NCBI RefSeq assembly: GCF_017939705.1
Contig: NZ_JAGKSQ010000014.1
Coordinates: 1-56,829, forward strand
Direction: 5' to 3'
Source: Halalkalibacter suaedae
GTDB lineage: Bacteria > Bacillota > Bacilli > Bacillales > Bacillaceae_D
DNA: 56,829 bases
Shown here: one piece after another, positions 12,430 through 56,829 of the stretch
Layout of the letters: every line of letters begins with the position of its first letter
How positions within the stretch are numbered: position 1 is the first letter of the stretch
Notes under the pieces: generated by a model
Told to the model about the DNA's origin: nothing
Seen by the model: the letters and a program-made list of their open reading frames with translations, nothing else
The model's database searches: none
Made by a program: the position numbers and the translations under genes

Positions 12430-12449
12430 AAAATAAACCTCCTAAAATG

Positions 12450-13847
12450 TCAATCCTCTACATCGACAACTTGACGCCTGCAAGTGAGGACTAGTCTTTT
12501 CAACGTATTTCTATTAACGTTTGCAACTCTAGAACGATGGAGTAGCGGAACCCATAAAATGTTTTCCATTTTATCAACGACAAGCGGCCAATCATTTCGT
12601 TCATTATGGGCAACTTTCCGATCAATAAATAAACGCCTTATCTTTTTAGACCCGCTCATACCACGACAAAGCATTCGATCATGCGGAAGGACTTGTCGTA
12701 TAGTTAATGGTAATTGAACCTGCTCCAAATCTAATATAATTTGGTTATCAGCTTCGTTCAGATCTTGTTCTTCCGTCACGTGGGCTCGTATAAACCAATC
12801 TCCTAAAGCTATACTACCAGGAATAGCTAGCTCTTCTGACGTTTGAACCAATGTTTCCTGTTCAATCTTTAGAAATTGACATCGGTCATAGTCTCGCCGA
12901 AATAAAAAAGAGTTTGGTAAATAATGTTCCCCGTTCATGTGTTCACGATTCATCATGTGGAGCACTTGCTCAATATGTATAAAATTTGTCGATGGAGAAT
13001 TTTTCCCGTAAAGATAATTTAATATTAGATGAATCACTCTTCTTTGTAAAGGCATGTTAATCTTTGTGAAGGCTCGCTGTGAAATTGTAACGTTTTGTTC
13101 ATTTTTTGAGAGCATAAGCGTTGGTAAGATTTCCTCTGCTAGCTCCATCAAAAACTGTTGATCCTCAGAACACCATTCCTGCTGTCTCTGCATATGTAAG
13201 TGAACATTTGGATTCTCCCTTTTTAAAAAAGGAAGAAGATCCTCTCTAAACCGATTACGTGTATAGTTCCTCGAAGAGTTACTAGAGTCTCTTCTTGGAA
13301 CAATTGATACATCATTACAATAGTGCTCAATTTCCTGTTTCGTTATTCCTAAAAATGGCCGAATGATAGCTCCATGTCCTAACTTACGAAAGGCCGGAAT
13401 TCCTACTGCCTTTAAAGGGTTCCTGCCGCGAACACTCATCATGATCATTGTTTCCACTTGATCATCTCCATGATGCCCCGTAGCAATTCTACTATTTTCA
13501 TCTACTAATTCCTCAAACCACTGATAGCGAAGTTCTCTTGCTGCTAGCTGCGTCCCAATATTCCTCTGCTTGGCATATCCCCGAACATCCACATCTTTCT
13601 TCATATATGGGATGTGGTAATTTAAGCAATATCTCTCAATATAGGTTGCATCTTGATCAGCTTCATCACCTCTTAAATGATGATGTACGTGAACTGCCTT
13701 AACATTGATTTTCAGAATTGTTCGATGCTCCCAGAGAAAATGAAGCAACGCCATTGAATCAGGACCTCCCGATACAGCAACAAAAATAGTTTGACCCTCT
13801 TTTAAGAGTTTATGCTTCTCAATGAATTTAAGAACGTTTGATCTCAT
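12450..13847 (-). CDS. tilS: tRNA(Ile)-lysidine synthase
   Basis: TilS modifies C34 of tRNA-Ile(CAU) to lysidine so that it reads AUA. The PP-loop motif VAVSGGPDSMALLHFL starts near residue 24. The ATP-pyrophosphatase segments TGHHGDDQVET and RPFLGITKQEIE follow. The C-terminal TilS domains extend to about 465 residues. The open frame continues upstream into the yjjB-like gene, but the ATG at 13847 has AAAGGAGGA upstream (about 14 nt) and matches the family N-terminus. It overlaps the upstream gene by 20 nt, so the exporter pair and tilS are probably co-transcribed. Confidence 0.95.
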   Translation of the reverse strand: MRSNVLKFIEKHKLLKEGQTIFVAVSGGPDSMALLHFLWEHRTILKINVKAVHVHHHLRGDEADQDATYIERYCLNYHIPYMKKDVDVRGYAKQRNIGTQLAARELRYQWFEELVDENSRIATGHHGDDQVETMIMMSVRGRNPLKAVGIPAFRKLGHGAIIRPFLGITKQEIEHYCNDVSIVPRRDSSNSSRNYTRNRFREDLLPFLKRENPNVHLHMQRQQEWCSEDQQFLMELAEEILPTLMLSKNEQNVTISQRAFTKINMPLQRRVIHLILNYLYGKNSPSTNFIHIEQVLHMMNREHMNGEHYLPNSFLFRRDYDRCQFLKIEQETLVQTSEELAIPGSIALGDWFIRAHVTEEQDLNEADNQIILDLEQVQLPLTIRQVLPHDRMLCRGMSGSKKIRRLFIDRKVAHNERNDWPLVVDKMENILWVPLLHRSRVANVNRNTLKRLVLTCRRQVVDVED

Positions 13848-22842: not shown

Positions 22843-24294
22843 CTATTTTTCTAATGTTTTTGCTTCTTCCCAAATGACGTCAAGCTCTGATAATGAAAGC
22901 TCACTCATTTGTTTCCCTTGTGCTTGTACCGTTTCCTCTATATAAGTGAATCGTTTTTTAAACTTCCGATTTGTTCCTAGCAAAGCCTCTTCTGCTTCAA
23001 TATCATAAAAGCGGGCAAGATTAACGATCACAAAGAGAATATCTCCTAATTCCTTTTTCATTTCTTCTTTGCTTTCTCTTTTGATTTCTTCTTTAAATTC
23101 ATCTATTTCCTCTTGTAACTTTGCCCACATTGGTGCTGCATCATCCCAATCAAAACCAACCTTTGCCGCTTTCTTCTGTAGTTTCTTTGCTTCTAATAAA
23201 GCAGGAAGCCCTTTAGGTATAGAAGATAGAATGGAATGTTCTTCTCCTTGTTCCCCCTTTTCCTGTCGCTTAATCTCATCCCAATTTGCAACAACTTCAT
23301 CAGCATTTTCAATTTCAACAGTAGAGAACACATGTGGGTGACGGCGTATCATCTTTCCAGTTGTTGATTGGATAATATCTTGAATTGTAAAATAGCCATT
23401 ATCCTCACCAATTTGGGCATGTAGCATAATTTGTAGCAACACATCACCTAGCTCTTCAATAAGATGGTCATCATCTTCTTCGTCAATTGCCTCTAACACC
23501 TCATATGTCTCTTCAAGTAAATATTGTTTTAGCGACTGATGTGTTTGCTCCTGATCCCATGGGCAGCCTCCAGGACCACGAAGTCTTGCAATGACCTTTC
23601 GTAGTATTGAAAATTCCCCATATAGGAATGGATCCTCTTTCACTGGTGGCACATAGACAGCAGTTAAATTATTTAGCGTCGTAACCCGGTCTAATTCAAA
23701 TAGAGGTACCGTTGTTAAGCTTTCCTGCTTGGAGCCTACGGCTGTTGCAATCGTAACAGGGTAATCATCTGGTAATCTTTCCATCAATGTTAGCTTCACC
23801 TCTGAAGCAATCATTTCATCATACACTTGGACGATAATTATATGATGCGTTAATTCTAACTCATCTCGTTTCAAGTCTGTACCATCAACAATCTGACAGC
23901 CCTCAATCGGATCTATATTTAATGCTCCATACATCGGGTCGAGAAAGCTCTGTCCTCCAATGAACTCTAACTCTACTTGCTCACTAGCTAGAAGAAGCTG
24001 AATCGTTCTTTCTGCTACAAAAGGATGTCCAGGAACAGCATAATTAATCTCCTGTTGCTCCGTTTCAAGTAATTGCTTAACAATTCCATTATAGACGTCT
24101 TCAAATTGATCATAGGTCTCATATACATGATCAAATGAATGAAAGACAACGCCTTCCTCTTTAAGTTCAACTATCGCTGGATGATCATCTGTGCGGACAT
24201 AAATTTCTTTCTGCTGTTTTATGTATCTGTACACACCTAAGGACATTTGTTCCAAATCTCCCGCACCTAAACCAATTATGTTTATTTTTTTCAC
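22843..24294 (-). CDS. yabN: Tetrapyrrole methylase / MazG NTP pyrophosphohydrolase fusion YabN
   Basis: The 483-residue two-domain protein has an N-terminal SAM-dependent tetrapyrrole methylase-like domain (about 1-220, starting KINIIGLGAGDLEQM). The C-terminal MazG part (about 225-483) shows CPWDQEQTHQSLKQYLLEE, EELGDVLLQIMLHA and the second EExxE-type helix ELGDILFVIVNLAR. The MazG part probably cleans up non-canonical NTPs; the role of the methylase half is unclear. The start overlaps the upstream gene by 4 nt. Confidence 0.94.
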   Translation of the reverse strand: MKKINIIGLGAGDLEQMSLGVYRYIKQQKEIYVRTDDHPAIVELKEEGVVFHSFDHVYETYDQFEDVYNGIVKQLLETEQQEINYAVPGHPFVAERTIQLLLASEQVELEFIGGQSFLDPMYGALNIDPIEGCQIVDGTDLKRDELELTHHIIIVQVYDEMIASEVKLTLMERLPDDYPVTIATAVGSKQESLTTVPLFELDRVTTLNNLTAVYVPPVKEDPFLYGEFSILRKVIARLRGPGGCPWDQEQTHQSLKQYLLEETYEVLEAIDEEDDDHLIEELGDVLLQIMLHAQIGEDNGYFTIQDIIQSTTGKMIRRHPHVFSTVEIENADEVVANWDEIKRQEKGEQGEEHSILSSIPKGLPALLEAKKLQKKAAKVGFDWDDAAPMWAKLQEEIDEFKEEIKRESKEEMKKELGDILFVIVNLARFYDIEAEEALLGTNRKFKKRFTYIEETVQAQGKQMSELSLSELDVIWEEAKTLEK

Positions 24295-55386: not shown

Positions 55387-55587
55387 TCATATAAAATTAT
55401 TTGATAATGTCCTCACTTGTTTTACATAAGTATGATAGACTGCATCTTTCTCATCTGAATGGACTAGTTCACTTTCGCATGACAAACATATAAACGTGTT
55501 CACAACTTGTAATCCTTCAGGCTTCCTCTTATTACAGATCATACAATTATCGCCGAGCCGCACTTTCATTAATTTAGTCTTTGGCAT
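55387..55587 (-). CDS. csfB: Anti-sigma-G factor Gin (CsfB)
   Basis: Gin inhibits sigma-G prematurely and sigma-E in the forespore. The 66-residue protein has the two CxxC zinc motifs: NCMICNKR near residues 15-22 and FICLSCES near 33-40. ATG at 55587 is chosen with GGGGTGATC just upstream; the longer frame starts inside the promoter region. It is the first gene after the rRNA operon, as csfB is after rrnA in B. subtilis. Confidence 0.92.
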   Translation of the reverse strand: MPKTKLMKVRLGDNCMICNKRKPEGLQVVNTFICLSCESELVHSDEKDAVYHTYVKQVRTLSNNFI

Positions 55588-55605
55588 TATGATCACCCCT
55601 GACAT

Positions 55606-55690: not shown

Positions 55691-55987
55691 TTATCTTAAT
55701 GGGAAGGGGATGTCGGGAAACTTTTTAGATTTATTAAATAGTATTAGCCAATTATTAAAGTTTACTAGCTGATTTTGTGATAATATACTAGCCGATAAGA
55801 GCAACTCCCCCCTTTTTCTCGGAGAAAGAGGTCTTCTCAGCGGGCGAAAGCTGCCTTTTATCATGGGGCATGGCTCTTTATGAGCGGGATTGGGTATTTT
55901 ATGAGCCGATGCTAGCAACTTATGAGCCGAATTAAATGTATTATGAGCCAAATCTACACTATTATGAGCCTCAGTTAAACTCACCAT
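55691..55987 (-). CDS. Short ORF of repeat copy 1 encoding SAHK-type heptads
   Basis: The 98-codon minus-strand frame begins MVSLTEAHNSVDLAHN and contains five consecutive heptads starting with Ala-His-Asn/Lys. A short basic stretch (PMIKGSFRPLRRPLSPRKRG) and a hydrophobic-rich tail follow. No ribosome-binding site better than AAAAAGAT is seen and there is no recognised domain. It may be a by-product of the 21-bp repeat rather than a gene. Function unknown. Confidence 0.25.
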   Translation of the reverse strand: MVSLTEAHNSVDLAHNTFNSAHKLLASAHKIPNPAHKEPCPMIKGSFRPLRRPLSPRKRGELLLSASILSQNQLVNFNNWLILFNKSKKFPDIPFPLR

Positions 55988-56141
55988 CTTTTTTGATGCA
56001 CAAGCTGACAGTTGTTGGTTTGATTAATTTTAAATTTGGATTTGTTATTCTAGATATTGATCTTTCACTTAGTGGGGGGCTTTTTATTCATTGTGCTCTT
56101 TTAAAAAGAGCTAAGTGACTGAAATTCCAGCCAAATTCTCT
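55812..56141. repeat. Long repeat, copy 1 (with 21-bp sub-repeats)
   Basis: A unit of about 330 bp starts near TTTTCTCGGAGAAAGAGG. It contains five TTATGAGCC/G cores spaced exactly 21 bp apart (about 55880-55970), a linker and the hairpin GCTCTTTTTAAAAAGAGC-like palindrome near 56093-56110. The same order of elements recurs in copies 2 and 3. Confidence 0.88.
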
Positions 56142-56448
56142 ATTTACTCGAAGAAGCAGGTCACTTCAGCGGCCTAAAGATGCCTTTTACCATAGGGAAG
56201 GGCTTTTTTTGAGCGGGATTGGCTATTTTATGAGCCGAACTAGCTGTTTTATGAGCCAAATCTACACTTTTATGAGCCTCAGCTGAACTCACCTTTCCTG
56301 ATGCACAAGCTGACGGTTATTCGTTTGATTAATTTTAAATTGAATTTTATTATTCTTGATAATGATCTTTCACTTAATAGATGGCTTTTTATTCATTGTG
56401 CTCTTTTAAAAAGAGCTAAGTGACTCAAGTTCCAGCCAACTTCTCATA
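56142..56448. repeat. Long repeat, copy 2
   Basis: A unit of about 307 bp is collinear with copy 1 but has four 21-bp cores, one fewer. It contains the same linker (GATGCACAAGCTGAC...) and the same GCTCTTTTAAAAAGAGC palindrome near 56399-56416. The difference from copy 1 is exactly one sub-repeat plus small indels. Confidence 0.88.
56161..56292 (-). CDS. Short ORF of repeat copy 2 encoding SAHK-type heptads
   Basis: A 43-codon frame from a GTG (VSSAEAHKSVDLAHKTASS) continues through four heptads and ends FPMVKGIFRPLK. It is in the same frame and register as the ORFs of copies 1 and 3. Start and expression are uncertain. Confidence 0.2.
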   Translation of the reverse strand: MSSAEAHKSVDLAHKTASSAHKIANPAQKKPFPMVKGIFRPLK

Positions 56449-56611
56449 TTTTCTCGGAGAAGCAGGTCTCCTCAGCTGCCACACTTGCCTTTTTACCATG
56501 AGGTAGGGGCTTTATGAGCAGGATTGGCTATTTTATGAGCCACTGCCTGCAATTTATGAGCCGAACTAGCTGTTTTATGAGCCCAATCTACACTATTATG
56601 AGCCTCAGCTG
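56449..56611. repeat. Long repeat, copy 3 (truncated)
   Basis: The third copy begins TTTTCTCGGAGAAGCAGG and has five 21-bp cores (56514-56605). It then diverges near 56611 (AGCTGGAGTCC), so the linker and palindrome are missing. It lies about 90 nt before the 5S terminator. Confidence 0.85.
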
Positions 56612-56681
56612 GAGTCCTTGATGTTTCCTTGAAATTGGCCAAAGTCAGTAGCTCCTTGGTCTCGCCTTTGGCTCTTTTCAA
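56493..56681 (-). CDS. Short ORF of repeat copy 3 encoding SAHK-type heptads
   Basis: A 62-codon minus-strand frame starts outside the repeat (MKRAKGETKELL). It enters five heptads beginning Ala-His-Lys/Asn and stops after APTSW. It shares the frame of copies 1 and 2. No domain is recognised and it may not be expressed. Confidence 0.25.
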   Translation of the reverse strand: MKRAKGETKELLTLANFKETSRTPAEAHNSVDWAHKTASSAHKLQAVAHKIANPAHKAPTSW

Positions 56682-56699
56682 GATGCTTATCTATCTATA

Positions 56700-56737
56700 T
56701 AAAAATAAAAAAAGCACAATCCAAATGGATTGTGCTT
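56700..56737 (-). terminator. Rho-independent terminator of the rRNA operon
   Basis: Perfect 11-bp arms AAGCACAATCC (56712-56722) and GGATTGTGCTT (56727-56737) with a 4-nt loop are followed on the minus strand by a T-run. It lies just after the 5S gene. Confidence 0.95.
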
Positions 56738-56741
56738 AATT

Positions 56742-56829
56742 GCCCGGCAACGTCCTACTCTCACAGGGGGAAGCCCCCAACTACCATCGGCGCTGAAGAG
56801 CTTAACGACCGTGTTCGGCATGGGAACGG
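56742..56829 (-). rRNA. 5S ribosomal RNA, 3' part (partial)
   Basis: The reverse complement contains the conserved 5S segments CCGTTCCCATGCCGAACACG, AAGCTCTTCAGCGCCGATGG and GTGAGAGTAGGACG, ending GTTGCCGGGC. About 88 nt of the 3' part are present; the 5' end is beyond the window. It corresponds to the 5S of rrnA, which precedes csfB in B. subtilis. Confidence 0.97.

Follow-up and report, generated by a model that had tools for sequence, protein, structure and literature searches.

What kind of element is the repetitive DNA that lies between a 5S rRNA gene and csfB in Halalkalibacter suaedae? The window analysed here is a stretch of 56,829 nucleotides (contig NZ_JAGKSQ010000014.1), and the array occupies its minus strand at 55878-56604, in three clusters between the 5S terminator and csfB. 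On the 5' side of the array, on the same strand, stand the 5S rRNA gene (56742-56829, Rfam RF00001, cut by the window end) and its probable intrinsic terminator (56703-56735, identified by eye from a hairpin GCACAATCC/GGATTGTGC with a T run behind it). The downstream neighbour, also on the minus strand, is csfB/gin (55387-55605, Pfam PF10764 Gin, 9.9e-15), which served as the anchor for locating the site in relatives. A first-pass annotation of this DNA had described three tandem units with a strict 21-bp sub-repeat near the 5S gene, and had offered a repetitive peptide, a phased protein-binding array or a mobile repeat as readings.

The repeat itself was borne out. The pair GGCTCATAA-N12-GGCTCATAA occurs eight times in the window, always on the minus strand at 55899-56604, and never in 100 dinucleotide shuffles; TRF reports a 305-bp unit at 55920-56541 (85% matches) together with a 21-bp sub-period; and when 6-mers in the window were scanned at periods from 12 to 34, period 21 gave 30 matches, period 27 one and the rest none. 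Eleven exact GGCTCATAA cores are distributed over the three tandem units as four, three and four, all on the minus strand. Cluster A (55878-55970) has exact cores at 55899, 55920, 55941 and 55962, in 21-bp steps, and a variant CGCTCATAA at its 3' end near 55878; cluster B (56207-56278) has exact cores at 56228, 56249 and 56270 and a variant CGCTCAAAA near 56207; cluster C (56512-56604) has exact cores at 56533, 56554, 56575 and 56596 and a variant TGCTCATAA near 56512. Once these run-end variants are counted, the clusters hold five, four and five sites at a step of 21 bp, as had been claimed at first. Homologous cores of neighbouring units are offset by 308 and 326 bp. TRF also found a small 12-bp tandem repeat of 3.2 copies elsewhere in the window (23055-23094).

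The window array belongs to a family of intergenic repeats, for the most part apparently non-coding, that is dispersed through the genome. The strict core pair occurs 103 times in the 4.3-Mb source genome (G000; 19 forward, 84 reverse), against none for the reversed control, and 498 kb of that genome, a sample picked mostly for having matches, contain 37 arrays with 543 exact GCTCATAA cores. Other copies with the 21-bp phase thus exist in the genome, and the suggestion of a dispersed repeat was right, though no mobilising enzyme is tied to the arrays. Core-to-core steps of up to 130 bp in the 498 kb measure 21 (384), 42 (25), 103 (3), 20 (2), 41 (2), 63 (2) and 89 bp (1). Linkers, 87 in total and 130-258 bp long, separate the clusters at 29 arrays, and a model built from 20 linkers has 144 matches in the source genome, including some half-matches to the reverse strand, those listed sitting on contigs C1, C5, C11, C25, C27 and C28. 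Two copies of this genome-wide linker family lie on the minus strand of the window, at 56073-56199 (model R1, 44.8 bits, E 3.4e-12) and 56377-56483 (45 bits, E 2.8e-12). With 150 candidates scored per genome, the model has no match in the 12 other genomes of the genus. The genes secA, pyrG, rho, upp and mbl lie near arrays, and from synteny with B. subtilis we presume that many arrays are located on the origin-proximal left arm. At one array on C28, near 210.5 kb (L206, about 12440-12600), the DnaA-box-like words TTATACACA, GTGGACAACCTGTAGATAA and TTATCCA adjoin the repeats, in a gene context that we take to resemble the B. subtilis ywlC region.

Across these arrays it is the core and its spacing that are kept. 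Adjacent exact cores less than 35 bp apart are exactly 21 bp apart in 384 of 386 cases, and the internal phased positions hold 411 exact cores and 29 inexact ones, 28 of the latter with one mismatch, while 59% of spacer positions differ between random pairs. A scan of 200 kb of G000 with no preset word found 31 intergenic clusters at period 21, one at period 28 and none at the other 13 periods of 15-29. A weaker RATY stands 5' of the core in a set that admitted elements only when close to 21 bp and to the consensus, a biased count that is not used as evidence. Linkers are 92% identical within one array (0.009 indel events per aligned base) and 52% identical between different arrays (0.032), indicating that tandem copies are recent or homogenised and that the spacing has been held over long divergence.

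Such homogenisation is what would be seen in a selfish or neutral satellite, that is, a short repeat that propagates through slippage, recombination or gene conversion, does nothing for the host and is tolerated where it lies behind genes. The same explanation draws on the restriction of the linker to G000 among 13 genomes of the genus, on the greater likeness of nearby arrays on C11 (Spearman -0.32; 45 of 2000 permutations as low) and on the patchy distribution of arrays over Bacillales, and the fixed 21-bp spacing could itself come partly from homogenisation. It accounts poorly for a core and spacing that are kept far better than spacer and linker, for the orientation bias described next, and for a design that recurs with different cores in other genera. 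Because of the patchy distribution and the tandem homogenisation it stays a serious rival, one that we consider possible rather than probable.

Placement relative to genes was scored with our own open reading frame calls of at least 100 aa. Tandem genes flank 17 source arrays that run in their direction and two that run against it (p 0.0007); of the remainder of the 37, eight lie between convergent genes, seven between divergent genes and three at stretch ends. A same-strand intrinsic terminator is present within 330 nt upstream of 21 of the 37, the window array being scored among them, and an opposite-strand one at two; at the remaining 16 no same-strand upstream terminator was detected. Downstream terminators are rarer (two same-strand, four opposite-strand). 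The 52 distinct arrays in other genomes share the tendency, with the upstream gene in the same direction at 41, although the bias between tandem genes is weaker there (19 same, eight opposite); a further 21 are convergent and two divergent. Their upstream terminators are same-strand at 17 and opposite-strand at two, and their downstream terminators same-strand at seven and opposite-strand at 19, as expected between convergent genes.

Arrays that follow the direction of the upstream gene and stand behind its terminator might also act in RNA, with a repeated word bound in read-through transcripts as a decoy, a stability element or a back-up to termination. An alignment of 20 linkers does contain one helix of seven pairs, one of which changes on both sides, but the other six hardly vary and the covariation term is 0.11; the array in the window (55862-56290) folds no better than shuffles (z -0.29), and the spacing fits the helical repeat of B-DNA. 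Only the 16S rRNA, one tRNA and the 5S rRNA reach the Rfam gathering score in the window, the array being unmatched. We hold an RNA-level element to be improbable.

A REP/BIME-like mobile repeat moved by a RAYT-type Y1 transposase is less probable still. Its appeal lies in the inverted GGCTGG/CCAGCC pair in the linker and in the position of the sole Y1_Tnp match of G000 (C11:821330-821662; L078, 10922-11737) between two arrays, although arrays are dense around that gene anyway. The array-rich genome G248 has no Y1_Tnp match, congeners that lack the source core have at least one, and all 17 of the Y1_Tnp loci scanned in other genomes are without a phased repeat; the link to REP/BIME elements with RAYT is weak. 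A viral origin was rejected: a triple pattern matched six viral contigs, of which L208, L209, L211 and L212 look like coding proline-rich repeats and L213 repeats its word every 10 bp. On the viral contig L210 (349 kb), at 1883-1991, the word GGTACATAA, also seen in G248, occurs about six times every 20 bp before a putative ribosome site and an open reading frame.

The site itself can be followed in the genus through csfB, which is matched in 11 of 13 genomes. Arrays with a 21-bp step lie upstream of csfB, on the csfB strand, in four species: the source, G005, G006 and G009. The core words differ from that of the source, being GGACAATAA, CGACAGNAA and GGACAGAAA in G005, G006 and G009, respectively. 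G005 has five units of GGACAATAA/CGACAATAA type, with one step of 20, G006 four CGACAG/CGATAG units, and G009 five degenerate GGACAG-type units; an exact-repeat scan flags G000, G005 and G006, and the G009 array rests on row reading plus a looser core pattern. In these three relatives additional sequence stands between array and csfB. An Rfam 5S gene accompanies the csfB-upstream array in the source only, with none in the G005, G006 and G009 pieces, which end near contig ends, and no array was found in the csfB flank examined in the other seven csfB-bearing genomes.

The correct form of the sister-species core came from the period scan, a first guess having matched none of the 13 genomes and a looser sister-core pattern one. 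Pairs of SGACAGNAA 21 bp apart number 12 in G006, 11 in G009 and two in the source (at one locus, on C22), with none in the 10 other genomes and none for the reversed control. Of 18 distinct elements of this type, eight have a same-strand upstream terminator and none an opposite-strand one; 61 of their 64 steps measure 21 bp, a biased count that is not evidence, as loose units were added only at 21 bp. The array on C22 of the source (C22:665791-665902, L272) is of this sister-species type, with GACAGTAA about every 21 bp in an 82-bp higher-order repeat.

Beyond this site the core word varies by genome and the design is kept. None of the 12 congeners has adjacent pairs of the source core. Of 38 stretches from a search of other genomes, 14 from Bacillaceae were used and, among the remaining 24, L020 and L037 were inspected. 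The expected phase is present in relatives: GGTTCATAA mostly every 20 bp in G185, GGCACATAA and GGTACATAA every 20 bp in G248, GGCGCATAA every 21 bp in G026, GGCACATAA/GGCCCATAA in G030 and G075, and GGCTCATAA mostly every 20 bp in the Fictibacillus type, while Sutcliffiella halmapala steps by 21 and 19 bp. The scan with no preset word (periods 15-29, outside open reading frames) found three clusters in 393 kb of G009, all at 21; in 199 kb of G006 it found one at 21 and one at 27, and in 200 kb of G012 it found none. In 160 kb of a neighbouring genus, picked because it had matches, there were three at 20 and one at 21.

Aligned by eye, these dialects take the general form GG-NNN-ATAA, with central triplets that include CTC, TTC, CAC, TAC, CGC, ACA, ATC, CTA, CTT and TTG. 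A search of 249 Bacillales genomes for triples of this form at spacings of 20-21 bp was positive in 50, from 25 of 105 genera, and negative in the other 199; some matches, for example in G260, may be coding repeats. The reversed pattern matches 10 genomes. In a separate core search the reversed control was not clean, since its matches in G013, G019 and G238 represent a further array type with an apparently different word, AATACATCG. That word occurs every 20-21 bp at several loci of these three genomes, which belong to a neighbouring genus of the same family (L214-L221, L262-L269). The triplet is uniform within arrays beyond chance: all three triplets are identical at 29 of 65 listed loci in 17 genomes, against a mean of 0.8 when shuffled over all loci; shuffled within genomes, 5000 trials gave a mean of 21.0 and never more than 28.

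The best helical periods lie at 10.0-10.55 bp in nine species sets, the smallest of which have eight and nine pairs. Loci in other species were found with patterns requiring steps of 19-21 bp, of which 10-10.5 bp is half, so that the fit gains weight only from longer distances and from the odd multiples of 10 seen in G248. Pairwise distances in that genome include 30, 50, 70, 90 and 110 bp (R 0.97 at 10.05 bp), which may represent a few founding events copied in higher-order repeats. At loci L135-L163 of G248, GGNACATAA sites are joined by CGAAGTCCATAA sites, the latter standing at odd multiples of 10 bp within such repeats.

Twenty-one base pairs are also seven codons, and the first-pass annotation had pointed to one minus-strand frame, common to all three copies, of Ala-His-Lys heptads. 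The heptad runs are locally open, as it had said, but the three open reading frames over the window array (98, 43 and 62 aa) each occupy a different minus-strand frame and cannot belong to a single protein, since 308 and 326 are not multiples of three. Stops in the Ala-His-Lys frame occur in 28 of 260 distinct units, where column shuffling gives 22.7 and a plain shuffle of spacer bases 50.9, the shortage thus being due to spacer column composition. Spacers are equally diverse at the three codon positions, and no Pfam family over the arrays exceeds its cut-off (the best, Alanine_zipper, scores 16 bits against 23.1). The steps of 19-20 bp in some species also argue against a peptide. Four of the 37 source arrays do overlap an open reading frame of at least 100 aa: two are on the opposite strand (421 and 125 aa, the real start of the former probably lying beyond the array) and two are same-strand Ala-His-Lys frames, one of 104 aa and one of 216 aa that stays open through three units and their linkers (C11:742286-742830; L074 12189-12839, corresponding to C11:742189-742839). 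Even with this last array in its favour, we judge a repetitive heptad peptide very unlikely.

Among the matches listed, no catalogued element in Rfam, Pfam or the open-licence literature corresponds to the arrays. The closest in kind are the STAR elements of Staphylococcus, which have a GC-rich 14-bp consensus, T(G/A/T)TGTTG(G/T)GGCCC(C/A), with at least 40 bp between copies (PMC3532100). According to that paper they share with the arrays the character of interspersed intergenic direct repeats in several copies per locus, with loci that differ by species, a patchy distribution and no assigned function, and the words orientation, direction and terminator are absent from its text (PMC3532100). 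The 37 arrays are themselves interspersed intergenic direct repeats at many loci, but the STAR motif TNTGTTGNGGCCC has two one-mismatch matches in the window (6782 and 25832), as many as in nine of 100 shuffles, and none in the array. The TAACTGA direct heptamer repeats of Beggiatoaceae and cyanobacteria resemble the arrays in forming many short intergenic sets of consistent orientation, most of them reported to lie just 5' of start codons (PMC4679880). Two contiguous copies of TAACTGA, with up to one mismatch, have no match in the window.

MIRU-VNTR of Mycobacterium, bcr of the B. cereus group and BOX/RUP of pneumococcus are, like the arrays, dispersed small intergenic repeats, and MIRUs follow gene direction; to our knowledge these differ from the arrays in having neither a helix-phased core every 20-21 bp nor core dialects. 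Iterons and plasmid centromere arrays are protein-bound direct repeats of about 20 bp on one face of the DNA, and the arrays have the same fixed register on the helix, but iterons and centromeres typically occupy one locus beside their own rep or par gene, whereas the arrays occupy dozens of chromosomal loci. CRISPR arrays, with long identical repeats and unique spacers of about 30 bp, were rejected: the conserved part here is about 9 bp and the 12-bp spacer has a partial consensus. A DnaA-box cluster was rejected as well, TTATGAGCC differing from the nonamer TTATNCACA at three of eight specified positions.

Phasing, core conservation, dispersal, the core dialects and the array upstream of csfB in four species are direct observations, and terminator placement and orientation hold as statistical tendencies of the arrays. 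A core and spacing kept while spacer and linker drift suggest that something recognises both, and binding sites are the simplest account of a word conserved in helical register when the rest drifts and signs of coding or RNA structure are few; the tendency to follow terminators, together with the orientation, suggests that the arrays act at gene ends. We accordingly favour, at a probability of about one half, the reading that the arrays are rows of putative protein-binding sites on one DNA face near gene ends, forming a boundary. The phased protein-binding array proposed at the outset is hence the best of the three initial readings, its phase being borne out and its binding staying putative. 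Each unit presents a row of about three to six 9-bp sites (GGCTCATAA here, GG-NNN-ATAA generally), and these, being two helical turns apart, all face one side of the DNA. Arrays tend to stand behind the end of a gene, often past its intrinsic terminator, and to point in its direction; units have multiplied in tandem, presumably by unequal exchange, and the element is present at dozens of intergenic places in the source species. The likeliest agent would be a DNA-binding protein that acts cooperatively along the array, and the bound array may form a boundary that blocks read-through or organises the chromosome.

Several observations count against binding sites. Isolated GCTCATAA cores outside arrays are few (13 in 498 kb), so single sites seem unused; the 12 congeners lack the core pairs and the linker, and the triple is missing from four-fifths of the Bacillales genomes (199 of 249). 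Seven of the 37 source arrays are divergent and 16 have no same-strand upstream terminator, the bias is weaker in other genomes (terminators at 17 of 52), one Ala-His-Lys frame is open over 216 aa, and homogenisation could partly fix the spacing.

A broader and more speculative proposal, which we think rather unlikely, is that Bacillales would mark the ends of genes through a lineage-specific DNA-binding factor that reads rows of GG-NNN-ATAA, and the triplet would be a dialect changing together with that factor, so that the same site would keep its array while the word is respelled. If the arrays are selfish, they would be a bacterial counterpart to satellite DNA, organised in higher-order repeats, and the fixed phase of 20-21 bp would itself need explaining. 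If they are bound, many Bacillales would have a means of marking or insulating the ends of their genes that is so far uncharacterised, and the arrays would show cleanly how a binding word can change between species while orientation and helical phase stay constant.
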